A DNA stretch of 35,673 bases from Puniceibacterium sp. (GTDB lineage Bacteria > Pseudomonadota > Alphaproteobacteria > Rhodobacterales > Rhodobacteraceae). A program made the position numbers and the translations under genes. Location of the stretch: the NCBI GenBank assembly GCA_024636635.1, contig JAGXGV010000172.1, forward strand, positions 1 through 35,673. Direction: 5' to 3'. The notes beneath the pieces were generated by a model. It saw only the letters and a list, made by a program, of their open reading frames with translations, was not told the origin of the DNA and searched no databases. Positions 5,990-19,173 of the stretch are shown here, piece after piece; position 1 is the stretch's first letter, and every line of letters begins with the position of its first letter.

Positions 5990-8900
5990 CTAGGACTTGT
6001 CCTTGAACCCCATCAGCGCGGCGGCGAAGGGATTGTCGGGGTCGATGGCCTTTTCGCGACGCGGCGGGCGCGCCTCGTAGGATTGTCCGCCCCTGTCGTC
6101 ACGCTCGGGGCGTTTGCCACCGGGTTTGCCGCCAGGCTTGCCCTTGCCCTTGCCACGCGGCCGGTCACCCTGCCCGCCGCCACGATGGCCGCCTTCGCCG
6201 CCACGATGGCCGCCTTCGGCACCGCGCTGGCCCCCTTCGGCACCGCTTGCTTGCGCGCCTTCGGCAGTTTTTCCCTGCGCGCCTTCGGCAGTTTTTCCCT
6301 GCGCGCCTTCGGCAGTTTTTCCCTGCGCGCCTTCGGCGCGGCGCCTCCGGTTGCCCTGTCCACCTTCGCGGCCACCGGCATCACGGCGTGGACCGCGGTC
6401 GCGGTTGCCCCGATTACCGGCCCAGGTGAAGGTATAGAACGATTCGGTTTCCGCACCCGCCATCGCCGCATCCGGCGCTGTACCCAACGGGATCTCTTCG
6501 GCGGCGACATCCGCGACCGGGGCTTCGGGGGCGGGTTGCGCCGGTTCCTCGGCAATCGGTGCCTCGCCCGAATCCGGGATGGCGGTCACTGCCTCGGGCG
6601 CTTCAGGCACGTCTTCGCCTGTTTCGGGCTGTTCGGTGATGGCACCCGCTTCGCTGACCTGGCCGACATCGAACACCGGCGTGTCGGCTGCGGCCTCGGC
6701 GGGGGATTCTTCCTGAGGATGGGCCAGTTCGGCCTCGGCGTCCTTGGGCACGACAGCGTCCACTGCCTTGACCTTGGTCCGCTCGCCCTTTTCGGCCTTG
6801 TAACCCATGCCGCCCATGAGGTCGGCAAACTGTTCCAGCGTCATGCCGGTGATCGACAGCATGTCGGCCCGGGCTTCGAAACCTGCGCGGCTGTCCTCGG
6901 CGCGCAGAAGATCGGCAAGCCGTTCCAGCATGTCGATGCGAATCGCGCGCTGTCCCGACTTGCGGTAGCCGGCGATGGAGTAATGTTCGGCCGGGATGTC
7001 GGCGATGTTGGGCACGGTGACCATGCCGGCAGGCGGCGCTTCGGGGAATTCGTCAAGCCCCTGACGCAGGCTCCAGAGCACCAGGCGCAGGCGCGTCGGC
7101 GCGGGTTTCAGCAGCAGCGGCATGAAAACGGTATATTGTCCGAACCGGATGCCGTGCTTGCGCAGCGCCGATCGCGCCTCCTGGTCGAGGGTCTTGACCT
7201 CTTCGGCGATTTCGGCGCGGGGGATGATACCCATCGCCTCGACCATGCGGAAGCCGAAGCCACGCGCCAGTCCGGTAAGCGTTTCGTCATGCTGGATGTT
7301 CAGCAGCGGTTCGAACAGGGCCGCGATCTTGCGGTCGATGAAGTGCTGAAGGCGGCGTTGCACCTTTTGCAGCACATCCGGCCCGGCGTCGTCGTCGACA
7401 AAGGCCACGATGCGCGGCTTTAGAGCATCGTCACCCGCAGCCAGTTTGCCCACCGCCTGGCTGCCCCACATGAGACCGCCCTGTTCGGTAAAGTCGATTT
7501 CGGTATCCGGCGCGTTATAGAACCGGTCCGCGCGCAGATGGAAATGCGGCGCGAGCGCCTGAAACGACGCGGTCTTGAGCGTCTTGGCCTCTTGTCCTGT
7601 CGCGTCCTTGTCCTGACGAAACCGGAACCCTTCGAGCTTTCCGACGAATTCACCTTCGACGGTCACCTCACCCTTGTCATTCACTTCGGCCAAGAGGGCC
7701 TCCTTCTGCTTCAACCGCCGCAACAGGACTGACGTCCGCCGGTCAACAAATCTTTGCGTCAGACGCTCGTGCAGAGCGTCCGACACGCGGTCTTCTACAG
7801 CGCGAGTCGTGTCGCGCCAATGCAATTCGTCACGGACCCAGCCCTTGCGCTGTGCCACATAGGTCCATGTGCGGATAAATGCCAAGCGTTTCGAAAGAGT
7901 GTCGATGTCTCCATCGATTCTGTCGATCCGTTTGACCTGCCGCGCCATGAAATCATCCGGCACACCGCCCCGCTGATGCAGGTGACCAAAGATAACCTCC
8001 AGCAGGCCCGCATGTTCCGAATGACTTATACCACGAAAGTCGGGGATTCGGCAGACATCCCACAGCAGGCGCACCGACGCCGGGTCGGACGCCCGCGCCA
8101 TGACCTCGGCCACCTGCGCCAGCGTCTTGAGCGCCATGAGGTCGTCGGCATCGCGCGCCCTGACCAGCCGTTCGTCGGCGGGCGGCTTTTCCAGCGACTG
8201 CACCAGCCTGTCGATGCTGCCGAAACCCAGATCCGCGTTGCGCCAGTTGAGCTTGCGCAGCGGGGTGAACTGGTGGTTGCAGATCGCTTCGGCCCATTCG
8301 TCGGGAAGCGGGCCTGCCTCTCCGGTGACACCGAAGGTGCCGTTGGACATGCCGCGCCCGGCGCGGCCCGCGATCTGGGCCAGTTCGTTGGGCTGAAGGT
8401 CGCGCATGCGCCGACCGTCGAACTTGGTGAGCGCCGAAAACGCCACATGGTCGATGTCAAGGTTCAGGCCCATGCCGATGGCATCGGTCGCCACCAGGTA
8501 GTCCACGTCGCCGTTCTGATAAAGCTCGACCTGCGCATTGCGCGTGCGCGGGCTGAGCGCGCCCATGACCACCGCCGCGCCCCCCTTCTGACGGCGCAGC
8601 AGTTCCGCAATGGCATAGACGTTGTCGACCGAAAAGCCGACGATCGCGCTGCGCGGGGCAAGGCGCGAAATCTTCTTCGGGCCGGTATAGCTAAGTGTGC
8701 TCATCCGTTCGCGGCGCACGAACTCGACGCCGGGCACAAGCGCCGCGATGGGGCCGCGCATCGTGTCGGACCCCATGAAAAGCGTTTCGTGCTGGCCGCG
8801 CATACGCAGCAGACGGTCGGTAAAGACGTGGCCCCGTTCGGGGTCGGCGCAAAGCTGGATTTCGTCCACGCCGACAAAATCCGTGCCCATGCCCTCGGGC

Positions 8901-10141: not shown

Positions 10142-11113
10142 ATGGATCTGACCCCTGCCCCGTTCCGTGCCGATCTGGCTGAAGGACCCGCCGGGGCAAG
10201 CGCGTTCTGGATCCATTCCGAAGACGGGCTGCGCCTGCGCGTGGCCCATTACCCGGCTGAAGGGACATCGCGGGGCACTGTCCTGCTGTTCCCGGGCCGC
10301 ACGGAATATGTCGAGAAATACGGCCGCACGGCCTGCGATCTGTCGGCGGCAGGTTACGACACCCTGACCATCGACTGGCGCGGTCAGGGGCTTGCGGACC
10401 GGATGCTGGCGGATGCGCTGATCGGGCATGTCGCCCTATTCACCGATTACCAGCGCGATGTCGCCGCCATGGGCGCCGTGGCCGAGGCGCTGGACCTGCC
10501 GCGTCCGCTGCACCTGATTGCACATTCCATGGGTGGTTGCATCGGTCTGCGGGCGGTCATGGACGGCCTGCCCGTGGCGTCCTGCGTGTTCACCGGCCCG
10601 ATGTGGGGCATCCAGATGTCAAGACCGCTGCGCCCTGCCGCCTGGGCGCTCAGCTGGGGAAGCGGCCAGGTCGGTCTGGGCCACATGTTCGCGCCGGGTA
10701 CAAAGCCGGCAAGCTACGTCATCAGCGAACCGTTCGAGGCCAATCTGCTGACCCGCGATCCCGGGATGTTTGCCTACATGCGCCGACAGGTGGCCGAAGT
10801 GCCTGGGCTTGCCCTGGGCGGTCCGTCACTGCGCTGGCTGCACCAGTCCTTGCAGGAATGTCGTGCGCTGAACCGGCGGCCTTCGCCCGACCTGCCCTGT
10901 CTGACCTTCGTCGGAGCGAACGAACGGATCGTCGATGTCCCCCGCATCCGCGACCGCATGGCACGCTGGCCGCGTGGCACACTCGAGATCGTCGAAGGCG
11001 GCGAACACGAGGTGCTGATGGAAGGTCCGAAGATCCGTGCGCAGCTGATGCCAAAGATACTGGCCCTGTTCGACAGCGCCGCGCCGGCCGGTCAAAGCGT
11101 GCAGACCGCGTGA
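10142..11113 (+). CDS. Alpha/beta hydrolase, lysophospholipase (PldB)-like
   Basis: A 323-residue alpha/beta hydrolase of the serine aminopeptidase S33/lysophospholipase group. The nucleophile elbow is A-H-S129-M-G-G, an acidic residue lies in VGANERIVDVPRI, and the catalytic His is in GGEHEVLME near the C-terminus. The oxyanion-side segment LFPGRTEYVEKY is also typical. There is no signal peptide, so it is probably cytosolic or membrane-associated. TAGGGGGAATC immediately before the ATG supplies the ribosome binding site. It follows the SCP2 gene by 8 bp, suggesting a lipid or lysophospholipid substrate, but this is inference from family and context. Confidence 0.88.
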   Translation: MDLTPAPFRADLAEGPAGASAFWIHSEDGLRLRVAHYPAEGTSRGTVLLFPGRTEYVEKYGRTACDLSAAGYDTLTIDWRGQGLADRMLADALIGHVALFTDYQRDVAAMGAVAEALDLPRPLHLIAHSMGGCIGLRAVMDGLPVASCVFTGPMWGIQMSRPLRPAAWALSWGSGQVGLGHMFAPGTKPASYVISEPFEANLLTRDPGMFAYMRRQVAEVPGLALGGPSLRWLHQSLQECRALNRRPSPDLPCLTFVGANERIVDVPRIRDRMARWPRGTLEIVEGGEHEVLMEGPKIRAQLMPKILALFDSAAPAGQSVQTA

Positions 11114-11151
11114 CGCCACTGGCGTACGGCCTGTCTGACGACGGTGGCGTC
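11112..11151 (+). repeat. Inverted repeat directly after the hydrolase stop codon
   Basis: Perfect 8-base arms GACGCCAC (11112-11119) and GTGGCGTC (11144-11151) are separated by 24 bases and begin within the hydrolase TGA. A related TGACGCC recurs at 11161. No T-tract follows, so intrinsic termination is doubtful. The hairpin may protect the mRNA 3' end or separate the hydrolase operon from the exonuclease gene at 11205. Confidence 0.35.
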
Positions 11152-11204
11152 GGGACTGCCTGACGCCTCTGGCATCGCCGCGCGGGCATCCTATGTAACG
11201 TTTC

Positions 11205-15757: not shown

Positions 15758-15856
15758 GTCCGGTGTGGGGTGTCCGGACGCGCAGGCGTCGACCCTGCGC
15801 CGGGCCTGAATTTTGGGGGTAGCTGGGCGCGATTTTGGTCGCACCCGGCCCCCTTT
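15758..15856 (+). terminator. Cluster of three stem-loops ending pepF (convergent gap)
   Basis: Three hairpins lie head to tail: GTCCGG/CCGGAC (15758-15779), GCGCAGG/CCTGCGC (15780-15800), and a long imperfect stem with GGGGG/CCCCC outside and GGGCGCGA/TCGCACCC inside (15815-15853, one G-U pair). The last is followed by TTTACTT on the plus strand and abuts the stop codon of the convergent DksA-like gene. The third stem is the best candidate for pepF termination. The U-tract is short, so this is moderate evidence. Confidence 0.45.
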
Positions 15857-16124
15857 ACTTCAATTGCGAATCCTTCGATCCGCGCCGGTTGATGCCGCCG
15901 CGCATCTTGTAGGCACCGTCGCGTTCCTGCTGGCAGTCGATGCACAGCTTCACCCCCGGCAAGGCCACGCGCCGCGCTTCGGGGATAGGTTCCTCGCATT
16001 CCACGCAAAACTCGGCGCTTTCGCCCACCGGGCCGCGCCGGGATTTGAGGCGCGCCAGTTCGTCCGCGATCGATGCTTCGATCTGTTCGTTTACCGCGCC
16101 ATCGCGCGACCATCCACCTGCCAT
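15855..16124 (-). CDS. DksA/TraR family C4-type zinc finger protein
   Basis: An 89-residue protein with a C4 zinc finger, Cys40-x2-Cys43 and Cys61-x2-Cys64, preceded by a helical N-terminal region (NEQIEASIADELARLK). Short members such as YbiI lack the long coiled-coil of true DksA. Family members bind in the RNA polymerase secondary channel and modulate initiation; for a protein this small that activity is not established. It lies between convergent pepF and a divergently oriented glutathione peroxidase gene (117 bp between starts), so its promoter is in that gap. All four cysteines are present. Confidence 0.9.
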   Translation of the reverse strand: MAGGWSRDGAVNEQIEASIADELARLKSRRGPVGESAEFCVECEEPIPEARRVALPGVKLCIDCQQERDGAYKMRGGINRRGSKDSQLK

Positions 16125-16240: not shown

Positions 16241-16768
16241 ATGACCCGTACCCTGATGGCCATTGCCCTGAGCTTGGCAACCGCCCTGCCCGCCGCCGCG
16301 CTGGAAACCTTTACCTTCGACAATATCGATGGCGGCACCATCGACACCGCCGACTGGGCCGGGCACCCGGTGCTTGTGGTCAACACCGCATCGCGCTGCG
16401 GCTTTACCCCGCAATATGAAGGGCTTCAGGCGTTGTATGACGATTACCGGGACGAGGGCCTGATCGTGCTGGCCGTGCCGTCCGACGATTTCCGCCAGGA
16501 ACTGGCAAGCGCAGAGGAAGTCAAGGAATTCTGCGAAGTCAATTTCGGTCTGACCCTGCCGATGACGGACATCACCCCAGTGCGTGGCCCCGGTGCGCAT
16601 CCGTTCTACAGATGGGTGGAAAAGACCGCAGGGTTCACGCCTTCGTGGAATTTCAACAAGGTGCTGATTGCCCCGGACGGCAGTATCGTCGCGACCTTTG
16701 GCGCAACGGCCCGGCCCAATTCCAGCGTGATCGTCACGCCGATCAAGGACATGCTGGCCGGTTCCTAG
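16241..16768 (+). CDS. Exported glutathione peroxidase family protein
   Basis: A 175-residue thioredoxin-fold peroxidase with an N-terminal signal peptide (MTRTLMAIALSLATALPAAA), so it probably acts in the periplasm. The peroxidatic residue is Cys53 in NTASRCGFTP, encoded by a normal TGC codon. Trp136 and Asn137 of the catalytic set are present in PSWNFNK. At the position of the usual C-N-Q-F motif the protein has S81-D82-D83-F84, so the catalytic Gln is replaced by Asp. Related proteins with NDF are known to me, so this is probably a subfamily trait. The ATG at 16241 has AGGAGG with a 9-base spacer, which rules out the upstream TTG at 16217. Its 3' end overlaps the convergent nuclease gene by 4 bases. 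The reductant (thioredoxin or glutathione) is unknown. Confidence 0.88.
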   Translation: MTRTLMAIALSLATALPAAALETFTFDNIDGGTIDTADWAGHPVLVVNTASRCGFTPQYEGLQALYDDYRDEGLIVLAVPSDDFRQELASAEEVKEFCEVNFGLTLPMTDITPVRGPGAHPFYRWVEKTAGFTPSWNFNKVLIAPDGSIVATFGATARPNSSVIVTPIKDMLAGS

Positions 16769-17418
16769 CGCCGCGCGGGCCGCCAGCCTGCTGATACCGC
16801 CTCGGATTCGCTGCAAAACCAGCGCTCGCCGTCAGAGGTGTTTATCACTGTCCTGTCGTAATGCTGTTGTCCGGGCACATGATAGATCGCGCCGTTTCCG
16901 GACAGGTTGCCTTTGATCGGGCAGTTACTGTCCTGAGCGACCTGCGGCTTTGGCCGCTGGTCGGCCCGAAAGGCCGCAGGCCGCTGGAATGCCGAACCAT
17001 GCAGCCCGCGTTCCGCGACCACAGCCGCCTTTTCGGCCAGATCGTAATCCCAGCCATATCTGCGATAAGCCAGAAGCAGGCCGTCGCTTACCAGCGCCTC
17101 GCCGATGTCCTGACCGTTCACCGCGCAGCGGGCGACAACGCGACCGTAGCGATCCATATCGGTCTGTTCACAAACAGCCACATGCCCCTGATACCTGTCG
17201 CGCACCTCGGCGCTGACCCAAGCGCCGCAGTCCCAGGCCGCACCGTCCGGTCCGTCGCAGGTCTGATCAGCCTCGGGCGCGTCCACAGCATGCAGCCGCA
17301 CACGGATGTCACCCACGTCAAAGGTATCGCCGTCGATCACACGGATCACACCCGACGGCTGCGCCACAACCGGGTGCGCGAGCGCACACAGAACAATTAG
17401 GGAACAAAATCTTAACAT
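16765..17418 (-). CDS. Secreted thermonuclease (SNase-like) with C-terminal sunset domain
   Basis: A 217-residue protein with a cleavable signal peptide (MLRFCSLIVLCALAHPVVAQ). Residues about 22-145 form the staphylococcal-nuclease fold, with VIRVIDGDTFDV, the catalytic region VRLHAVDAPEADQ and the DRYGRVVARC segment carrying the second catalytic Arg. After a short linker, residues about 165-215 match the sunset domain often fused to nucleases (CPIKGNLSG, IYHVPGQQHYDRT, GERWFCSESEAVSAGWRP) with its two cysteines. It likely degrades extracellular or periplasmic nucleic acid using Ca2+. The start codon overlaps a TTAA-N7-TTAA element, and the upstream 120 bp hold a phased GTTAAC array, so unusual transcriptional control is possible. 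No strong Shine-Dalgarno is seen. Confidence 0.92.
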   Translation of the reverse strand: MLRFCSLIVLCALAHPVVAQPSGVIRVIDGDTFDVGDIRVRLHAVDAPEADQTCDGPDGAAWDCGAWVSAEVRDRYQGHVAVCEQTDMDRYGRVVARCAVNGQDIGEALVSDGLLLAYRRYGWDYDLAEKAAVVAERGLHGSAFQRPAAFRADQRPKPQVAQDSNCPIKGNLSGNGAIYHVPGQQHYDRTVINTSDGERWFCSESEAVSAGWRPARR

Positions 17419-17537
17419 CGGGTTAACATCAGGGCAAACAACCGCGACATCAACCCTTTTCGTTAACCTCGGTTAACGCTGTGCTCTATTTGTTAACCCA
17501 AGTTAACGCCGTGCTTTATTTGTTAACTCACGTTAAC
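17411..17537. repeat. Phased array of GTTAAC palindromes in 30-bp repeats upstream of the thermonuclease gene
   Basis: GTTAAC occurs at 17422, 17462, 17472, 17492, 17502, 17522 and 17532; all distances are multiples of 10 bp. A 30-bp unit containing two GTTAAC sites (4-bp spacer) and a tail ending CTATTT or TTATTT repeats at 17462-17491 and 17492-17521, with a third partial copy from 17522 that runs into the betA stop codon. CTTAAC at 17411 gives an eighth related site. The region is far more AT-rich than its surroundings. It lies between betA and the nuclease gene, both on the minus strand, in the nuclease promoter position. An operator array or nucleoid-protein site is the likely role, but this is inference. 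Confidence 0.85.
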
Positions 17538-19173
17538 GCTGGGCCGTTTCCCAGCGCGGGTTGATCCAGGGTTCGTCGTTCACCGCGGCCAGGCTGCGGT
17601 CCAGAACGTGATCGGCGATCTTTTCTCCGACCATGATCGAGGGTCCGTTGAGATTGCCATTGGTGATGCGCGGAAAGATCGAGGAATCTGCGACCCGCAG
17701 CGCCTCGACCCCGATCACCCTGCCGTGGGAATCGACCACGGCGCCGGGATCGTCCGGTGCCCCCATCCGGCAGGTGCCGCAGGGGTGATAGGCGCTTTCG
17801 GCATGTTCGGCGATGAAGGCATTCAGTTCGGCATCGCTTTGCACATCCGCGCCCGGCTGGATTTCATGCCCGGCATAGGCGGCGAACGCCGCTTGCGCAA
17901 ATATTTCGCGGGTAAGGCGGATGCAGGTGCGGAAATCTGACCAGTCGTCCGGATGGCTCATGTAGTTGAAGCGGATCACCGGCGCATCCGCCGGATCGGC
18001 GGACCTCAGCGTGACCGCGCCGCGCGATTTTGACCGCATGGGACCGACATGGGCCTGAAACCCGTGCCCCTCCGCGGCGACCTTGCCGTCATACCGCACC
18101 GCCAGCGGCAGAAAGTGATACTGGATGTCGGGATAGGGCACCCCGGGCGCGGAGCGCACAAAAGCCGCCGATTCGAACTGGTTCGAGGCCCCCGGCCCAT
18201 CCTTGAGCAGCAGCCAGCGCGCCCCGACATAAGCCTTGCCCGGAAGGTTCCAGTAGGTGAACAGCGATACCGGCTGCGTCGCCTTCATCTGGATGTAAAG
18301 TTCGAGGTGGTCCTGCAGGTTCTGCCCGACGCCGGGACGATCCGCGACAACGTCGATGCCATGCTCGGCCAGATGCGCCTCCGGGCCGATCCCCGACAGC
18401 ATCAGCAACTTTGGCGAATTGAGCGAGGACGCCGCCAATATGACCTCGGTCTCTGCCGTTATCACCTCGGTCTTGCCGCCGCGCAGAACCTCGACCCCGA
18501 CGGCGCGCCCGTCCTTGATCACGACCCGCTGCGCCAGCGCCCGCACCACCTGTGCCCCCAGCTTTTGCGCCGGGCGCAGATAGGCCTTGGCCGCCGACCA
18601 GCGTTCGCCATTGTGAATCGTCGCTTCCATCGGGCCAAAGCCTTCCTGCTTTTCCCCGTTGTAATCCTCGGTCGCCTCGTACCCGGCCTCGATCCCGGCG
18701 TCGACAAAGGCTTGCACCAGCGGATTGTCCCGCTTGCCGCGCGTGATGTGCAGCGGCCCGTCCGTGCCGCGCCAGCCGGATTCGCCGCCGTGCCAATGTT
18801 CCATCCGGCGGAAATAGGGCAGCACGTCGGCATAACCCCATCCCTCGGCACCGGTGTCGCGCCAGTGGTCAAAATCCATCGCATGGCCACGCACGTAGAC
18901 CATGCCGTTGATGCTTGAGGACCCGCCGATCACCTTGCCGCGCGGACAGGCCAGCCTGCGGCCGCCAAGATGTTCCTCTGGCTCGCTCTCGTATCCCCAG
19001 TCATACATCTTCATGTTCATCGGATAGCTGAGCGCGCCCGGCATGTTGATGAACGGCCCCGCATCGGACCCGCCATGTTCGATCACCAGAACCGATTTCC
19101 CGGCCTCTGCCAGCCGGTAGGCCATGGCACAGCCTGCCGACCCTGCCCCAACAATCACATATTCCGCATTCAT
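17533..19173 (-). CDS. betA: Choline dehydrogenase BetA
   Basis: A 546-residue GMC-family FAD flavoprotein that oxidises choline to betaine aldehyde, membrane-associated and coupled to the respiratory chain in known BetA proteins. The FAD-binding GxGxxG is G9-A-G11-S-A-G14. The GMC signature segment [21 protein letters not shown] and the active-site His463 in [12 protein letters not shown] are intact, as is the C-terminal [21 protein letters not shown]. Length matches the family (550-560). GAGAGG precedes the ATG. It is the last gene of the bet locus, 197 bp after betB. Its stop codon lies inside the final GTTAAC of the repeat array. Confidence 0.96.

Follow-up and report, generated by a model that had tools for sequence, protein, structure and literature searches.

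A helically phased array of TTAAC pairs upstream of an SNase-family nuclease gene in Puniceibacterium: a locally amplified probable operator and likely target of CtrA

We found that a gene for an SNase-family nuclease in a Puniceibacterium genome is preceded by three copies, all in one helical phase, of a paired TTAAC element, and we favor, with somewhat better than even confidence, the explanation that the array is an operator of this gene for CtrA or a close relative of the OmpR/PhoB type, amplified in this genome. Judged from comparison with related bacteria, function as an operator is very likely, and CtrA, which is named by inference, is the likely binder. The element in the nuclease promoter is real and conserved, while its amplification is seen only in the host genome. 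An operator in the nuclease promoter, as the initial annotation had proposed, is supported because the pair nearest the gene keeps its position, at a fixed distance from both the start codon and a -35-like element, and because the full pattern is nearly specific to this gene. The features are listed below in coordinates of the window, by which we mean the whole 35,673-base stretch of DNA that was analyzed; positions of TTAA are counted from the nuclease ATG.

16765 to 17418, minus strand: nuclease gene, its product an SNase domain (PF00565) followed at the C terminus by a 'sunset' domain (NF051437), from profile matches.
17412 to 17427, minus strand: TTAA pair spaced by 11 bp (TTAA at -8 and +3), over the -10 region and the start codon.
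17425 to 17430, minus strand: weak -10-like element, GATGTT, from column conservation (A at -11 in 50 of 70 rows).
17448 to 17453, minus strand: -35-like element, TTGATG, 13 bp past the second TTAA of pair 1, from conservation.
17462 to 17477, minus strand: pair 1 (TTAA at -58 and -48), the conserved putative regulatory element.
17462 to 17541, no strand assigned: 30-bp tandem unit, 2.7 copies, found by TRF.
17492 to 17507, minus strand: pair 2 (TTAA at -88 and -78), an additional copy in the host genome.
17522 to 17537, minus strand: pair 3 (TTAA at -118 and -108), with the betA stop codon inside its upstream TTAA.
17533 to 19173, minus strand: betA, choline dehydrogenase, ending within the array (TIGR01810, 802.6 bits against a cut-off of 732.1).

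The initial annotation had described seven GTTAAC hexamers separated by multiples of 10 bp, a 30-bp unit with paired sites, and a location ahead of the nuclease gene that merges with the end of betA, and each part of this description held. The window contains seven GTTAAC words and no others (17422, 17462, 17472, 17492, 17502, 17522, and 17532), all equal modulo 10 and hence in a single 10-bp phase, and in dinucleotide shuffles of the window the mean was 1.68 and the maximum 5, with seven reached in none of 100. Six of the hexamers form three GTTAAC-N4-GTTAAC pairs with a 30-bp period, the last of them (17532) overlapping the betA stop codon, and the seventh (17422) is half of a separate 11-bp pair, completed by a TTAA at 17412, that overlaps the nuclease start codon. 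In terms of TTAA tandems, the array region holds three spaced by 6 bp, which are the three pairs, and one spaced by 7 bp. The genome-wide search for the paired site that had been suggested was run on the host assembly, a draft of 3.55 Mb in 174 contigs that is 78.9% complete; GTTAACNNNNGTTAAC matched there with zero mismatches only at the three array pairs, and one further place matched with one mismatch. Elsewhere in the window, a perfect 24-bp tandem repeat (6252 to 6337, 3.6 copies, 100% matches) stands beside 21-bp repeats (6175 to 6246), and a diverged 25-bp tandem repeat of about three copies lies at 11097 to 11173.

The nuclease gene product has 217 residues, with the sunset domain after the SNase domain, and is probably exported, judging by eye from its hydrophobic N terminus. 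Behind betA lie betB and a gene for a BCCT-type transporter. Among the typed genes between 13.8 and 22.1 kb, the sole regulator-like protein is a DksA/TraR-type zinc finger (15855 to 16124), and we know of no site-specific DNA binding in that family.

We compared the upstream regions of nuclease relatives, for which a locus search kept 80 of 110 loci and a genome search, matching 77 of 120 genomes, gave 30 loci. The 94 loci with a located start were reduced to 81 with at least 43% identity (L096 excluded), to 76 with a unique upstream region, and to 70 rows starting with ATG; these 70, less L085, which is a copy of the window, are the 69 relatives counted here. The regions were aligned gap-free on the start codon, without a tree, and the relatives, which are not independent of one another, were weighted equally. 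In this alignment of the spacer between betA and the nuclease, which the initial annotation had called for, the pair keeps a constant distance to the start codon. TTAA occurs at -61 to -56 in 55 of 69 relatives, and an exact 10-bp pair stands at the conserved position in 25 and an 11-bp pair in 2; the same test for a 10-bp pair at seven shifted positions gave 0, 0, 0, 1, 1, 0, and 0 of 69. In the window, the conserved pair is the one at 17462/17472, nearest to the gene.

The upstream TTAA doubles as the betA stop codon in 12 rows as scored by a text pattern, which missed at least L046. In the 57 relatives in which no betA stop was scored at the site (L085 removed), TTAA is kept in 43 and the exact pair in 24, which argues that the element is not merely the stop codon of betA. 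The C after each TTAA is present in 24 of 27 and 21 of 27 relatives with an exact pair, and the G before each TTAA in 15 of 27 and 16 of 27. The copies in the window are perfect both as direct repeats and as dyads, but the reading of the sites as palindromes is doubtful in view of the relatives, several of whose copies, such as TTAACCTTTCTTAAC, have no dyad symmetry; the half-site leans more toward a direct repeat of TTAAC than toward a dyad.

A scan with consensus promoters found no sigma-70-type site at the nuclease promoter, so our assignment of the -35 and -10 elements comes from conservation across the relatives. In 24 of 27 paired promoters, a TTG starts 13 bp downstream of the first base of the second TTAA, and TTG followed by A or C is found at -35 in 47 of 70 rows, the window among them. 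At the expected -10 site, the same 70 rows favor A at -11 and T at -10 and -8. Since these elements stand at fixed places, transcription of the nuclease gene probably starts at or beside the ATG.

The combination of pair and -35-like word is almost specific to this nuclease gene. A search of 295 family genomes for TTAACN5TTAACN8TTGA gave matches in 10, against none for a reversed-pattern control, and 9 of the 10 matches, including that in the host genome, are at this nuclease. Eight of the nine have the first base of the pattern 58 bp ahead of the point where the match to nuclease residue 1 starts; the ninth (L135) is on a contig that carries only part of the nuclease, and the tenth match overall (L127) lies away from the nuclease. 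Genes near other 10-bp pairs are mixed and belong to no one class, as seen in 20 places that were picked by hand rather than at random, five of which are one recurring element and one of which (L208) is the nuclease of another genome; an ORF near L201 resembles YifB/ComM by eye only. Within the host genome, the neighbors of other 10-bp pairs are YicC-like and PAS_5 genes, a terminase gene, and ORFs that match nothing in Pfam; those of other 11-bp pairs are trypsin-like, glycosyltransferase, and PAS-domain genes.

Relatives mostly have a single pair at this place, and one, L038, has five TTAA in succession at 10-bp steps. The four same-genus relatives have no exact second half-site at -48 and no array (at two same-genus loci, L097 and L098, the upstream region looks the same as at the Puniceibacterium loci L005 and L006); the pair is therefore not indispensable, and the element has been lost as well as gained. 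Absence of the repeat unit from close relatives had been named in advance as evidence against the claim, and the 30-bp array is indeed absent from these four, whereas the pair from which it is built is found widely across the family. The search of related genomes for the 30-bp unit likewise found two pairs at 30-bp spacing in the host genome alone, and in none of the 294 other family genomes in a draw that holds one same-genus genome; the upstream regions of all four same-genus relatives were read separately.

The origin of the array can be read from the end of betA. Ten relatives, selected for a betA end at the site and including all four of the same genus, have CA(A/G)CGTTAA at -63, and the window has C(A/G)GCGTTAA at -63, -93, and -123, with a distance from the betA stop to the nuclease ATG exactly 60 bp longer than in those 10. 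Since this betA-end word recurs at 30-bp steps, the array is most simply explained as a gain of two 30-bp units, each carrying the end of betA and a pair; on this comparison only pair 1 (17462/17472) is old, and the other two appear to have been gained. Across the units the hexamers are identical, and the spacers and tails have diverged: in each of three comparisons none of the 12 hexamer positions differs, while the 18 remaining positions show 5, 9, and 10 differences (Fisher P = 0.066, 0.004, and 0.0016, the comparisons not being independent), which weakly suggests that selection has kept the hexamers. These data also bear on the alternative that the extra copies are plain products of replication slippage and without function, with the nearest pair alone at work, an account that overlaps with ours as far as pair 1 is concerned. 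The occurrence of the array in 1 of 295 genomes and the betA-end remnants in the duplicated unit fit such an origin, and the unchanged hexamers speak against a lack of function, with the same reservation that the comparisons are non-independent and one P value is 0.066; we consider functionless copies unlikely, though the least so of the alternatives.

The second TTAA pair in the promoter, at the start codon, has its half-sites (-8 and +3) 11 bp apart, as in the CtrA consensus. TTAA is present at -8 in 18 of 69 relatives, at +3 in 45, and at both in 12; the half-site at -8, which the window shares with the 18, overlaps the inferred -10 element, as in promoters repressed by CtrA. Codon usage points to selection on the DNA word itself. 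Where codon 2 encodes leucine it is TTA in 45 of 48 nuclease genes, against 7 of 644 leucine codons later in the same genes, and among leucines at codons 2 to 6 of other genes TTA was used for 0 of 47 in a set of 83 annotated plasmid genes and for 1 of 61 in a set of 125 unannotated flanking ORFs, of which some are surely spurious. Arginine at codon 3 is AGA or AGG in 49 of 55 cases against 55 of 1363 later in the genes, which is weaker evidence because these codons are already common early in other genes (8 of 40 and 8 of 34 arginines at codons 2 to 6). Selection on a DNA word at the nuclease start is thus likely; the word may serve CtrA, the promoter, or translation. Only 2 of 69 relatives have both the start-site pair and the upstream pair, so a joint design of the two is not favored.

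Tandem TTAA half-sites are a mark of CtrA, which binds them on one face of the helix. We counted TTAAC pairs spaced by 9, 10, 11, and 12 bp, with palindromic sites counted on both strands, and found 26, 122, 453, and 46 in 56 family genomes with CtrA (53 with a match over the curated cut-off and 3, the host genome among them, with split or partial genes). The corresponding numbers were 16, 23, 18, and 12 in five family genomes without ctrA, which are of other lineages and two of which are incomplete (G012, 82%; G037, 74%), and the distributions differed between the two sets (61 genomes; chi-square P = 1.6e-15). Pairs at 10 and 11 bp clearly exceed those at 9 and 12 bp only in genomes with CtrA. 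The host genome contributes 8 of the 122 10-bp pairs, 6 of them from the array (both strands), and G038 contributes 50 of the 453 11-bp pairs; without these two genomes the sums are 114 and 399. G038, with 50 11-bp pairs against 1 for the reversed control, stands far above the other 60 genomes. When a reversed-pattern control was used for the 56 genomes, the 11-bp pair was in excess (453 against 212) and the 10-bp pair was not (122 against 214); we regard the neighboring spacings as the fairer comparison, since they are built from identical words. G033, which has no CtrA match over the cut-off, carries, in a stretch of 2.7 kb (C68:25043-27694), five palindromes of the type TTAACAGCTGTTAAC that are nearly identical, and this local cluster falls among the counts for genomes without ctrA.

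The host genome itself carries ctrA in two pieces at contig ends (C112:32371-32916 and C60:444-587). The piece at the end of C112 matches residues 1 to 182 of NF045991 with 322 bits, the cut-off of 350 being for the whole protein, and the C-terminal piece on C60 precedes a LigA-like ORF, both of the latter named by eye. TTAA-N6-TTAA has 7 matches there, of which the array supplies 3, and the reversed control has 10; with no excess, the motif is no argument within the host genome alone. Of the 4 places with the 11-bp TTAAC pair, one is the start-codon pair of the nuclease gene.

Counting against CtrA is the spacing of the nuclease pair, which in the relatives is mostly 10 bp (25 against 2 at 11 bp) when that of the usual CtrA site is 11 bp. 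This spacing, together with a place upstream of the -35 element that is unlike that of the usual CtrA site, leaves some room for another response regulator of the OmpR/PhoB family, or a regulator dedicated to the nuclease, as the protein that binds the TTAAC repeats. Such a protein would also suit the near exclusivity of the pair and -35 pattern to this one gene, and the host genome has several other OmpR-type regulators (10 matches to PF00486). On the other side, TTAAC pairs at both 10 and 11 bp rise with the presence of ctrA, the zinc finger protein is the only regulator-like product typed near the gene, and the motif described for CenR, TGA-N8-TGA, has a different half-site (PMC9275681). 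A binder other than CtrA or a close relative is, in our estimate, rather unlikely.

Three further explanations fared worse. An AT-rich UP element contacted by the alpha subunit of RNA polymerase, with no specific regulator, would agree with AT-rich, phased DNA immediately upstream of a -35-like element, but the conserved C after TTAA marks a specific word rather than any AT-rich stretch and makes this improbable. It is still less probable that the hexamers act as RNA hairpins at the 3' end of the betA transcript, as a terminator, stabilizer, or attenuator. The minus-strand RNA of 17411 to 17541 does fold strongly (-47.2 kcal/mol, z = -5.3, none of 200 shuffles as good), as expected of any palindrome array; there was no Rfam match, the lone terminator-like site within 17350 to 17650 is on the opposite strand, copies such as TTAACCTTTCTTAAC are without dyad symmetry, and relatives keep the distance from the element to the nuclease start even where betA ends elsewhere. 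The nucleoid or partition-type binding site considered in the initial annotation, which phased repeats of a rare AT-rich hexamer might suggest, is very improbable because the array occurs once in the host genome, in one promoter, because not one of the 294 other genomes has two pairs spaced by 30 bp, and because the relatives mostly have a single pair.

Under the preferred reading, an operator for CtrA or a close relative, the ancestral site would have been one TTAAC pair with half-sites 10 bp apart, at -58 and -48, and with the -35-like element 13 bp further on. A 30-bp segment comprising this pair and the end of betA would then have been duplicated twice, probably by slippage, to give three pairs in phase. 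Phosphorylated CtrA could fill the upstream pairs cooperatively and act on RNA polymerase at a promoter with a -35 element of its own, the added pairs raising occupancy and making expression steeper with CtrA phosphorylation, and the 11-bp pair at the start site might serve as a brake that limits transcription when CtrA is high.

In Rhodobacterales, motility, gene transfer agents, and DNA uptake are under the control of the CtrA program. We tentatively propose, as a possibility held with less confidence than the operator itself, that the exported SNase-sunset nuclease is a conserved and so far unlisted member of this program, its response tuned by the addition and loss of in-phase TTAAC pairs; in the titles and opening lines of abstracts on CtrA and nucleases and on thermonuclease promoters of Rhodobacterales, we found no paper that names this nuclease as a CtrA target or deals with its promoter. 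If the proposal is true, the tripled operator of the host genome, with its 30-bp steps, would offer a natural series of one, two, and three sites for the study of cooperativity, and if CtrA binds, degradation of DNA outside the cytoplasm would share a regulator with gene transfer agents and DNA uptake. The locus would also show how, in nature, an operator can be multiplied by steps of whole helical turns, and TTAAC pairs at 11 bp and, more weakly, 10 bp provide a simple genome-wide signature of CtrA, one that was not seen in the five genomes without a CtrA match.

A different phased element was seen in the course of this work. Three TTAA at 10-bp steps, of the TTAACAAGAATTAAC family, are found repeatedly, across five genera; they lie about mid-locus in each of L196 to L200 and at L226:7150-7173 and L227:7428-7451. 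DnaA-box-like words lie near the element in L226, L227, and L199, and an Exo_endo_phos gene adjoins it in three of five. This element may be a replication origin with CtrA-type sites.

Two known types of operator resemble the nuclease element in part. The operator described for CenR is also a 10-bp direct repeat (TGA-N8-TGA) and lies upstream of -35 in activated genes, mostly for envelope or periplasmic products (PMC9275681); it was set aside because the half-sites here are TTAAC. The Crp/Fnr-type site given for D. shibae is TTAAC-N4-GTCAA (PMC7232146), and a dyad of this kind is disfavored by the better-kept C after TTAA and by the copies that lack dyad symmetry. Among CtrA sites, the D. shibae motif is given as TTAAC-N5-GTTAAC, with the usual 11-bp spacing (PMC7232146), and the gafA promoter of R. 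capsulatus is described as bound by CtrA at a site of 11-bp spacing located at the transcription start, gafA being, unlike the nuclease gene, an activator of the gene transfer agent (PMC6363796). Closer in spacing are the flgB2 and fliI2 promoters of R. sphaeroides, also a related bacterium, in which CtrA elements 6 bp apart, and thus of 10-bp period, have the support of mutagenesis, with binding of CtrA to the region detected by ChIP (PMC6180460). Those promoters are flagellar and have one proposed site each, and here three pairs precede the -35-like element in the promoter of a nuclease gene. Most CtrA-activated promoters of Caulobacter are described as having the site at -35 (PMC11264516), an overlap that is not found at the nuclease promoter, where the TTG begins 13 bp downstream in 24 of 27 relatives. 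The Caulobacter pilA promoter has four CtrA sites, of which site 1 overlaps -35, site 2 is 31 bases upstream of site 1, and sites 2 and 3 have the 6-bp spacing (PMC11264516). The pilA sites are irregularly spaced and reach the -35 element, whereas the pairs in the window are exactly 30 bp apart and the nearest one remains upstream of it. In both cases, multiple CtrA-type sites include upstream ones with 6-bp spacing, and the pilA constructs with extra upstream sites, including three copies 31 bp apart, which altered promoter activity and its sensitivity to the level of CtrA (PMC11264516), parallel the 30-bp units found here.
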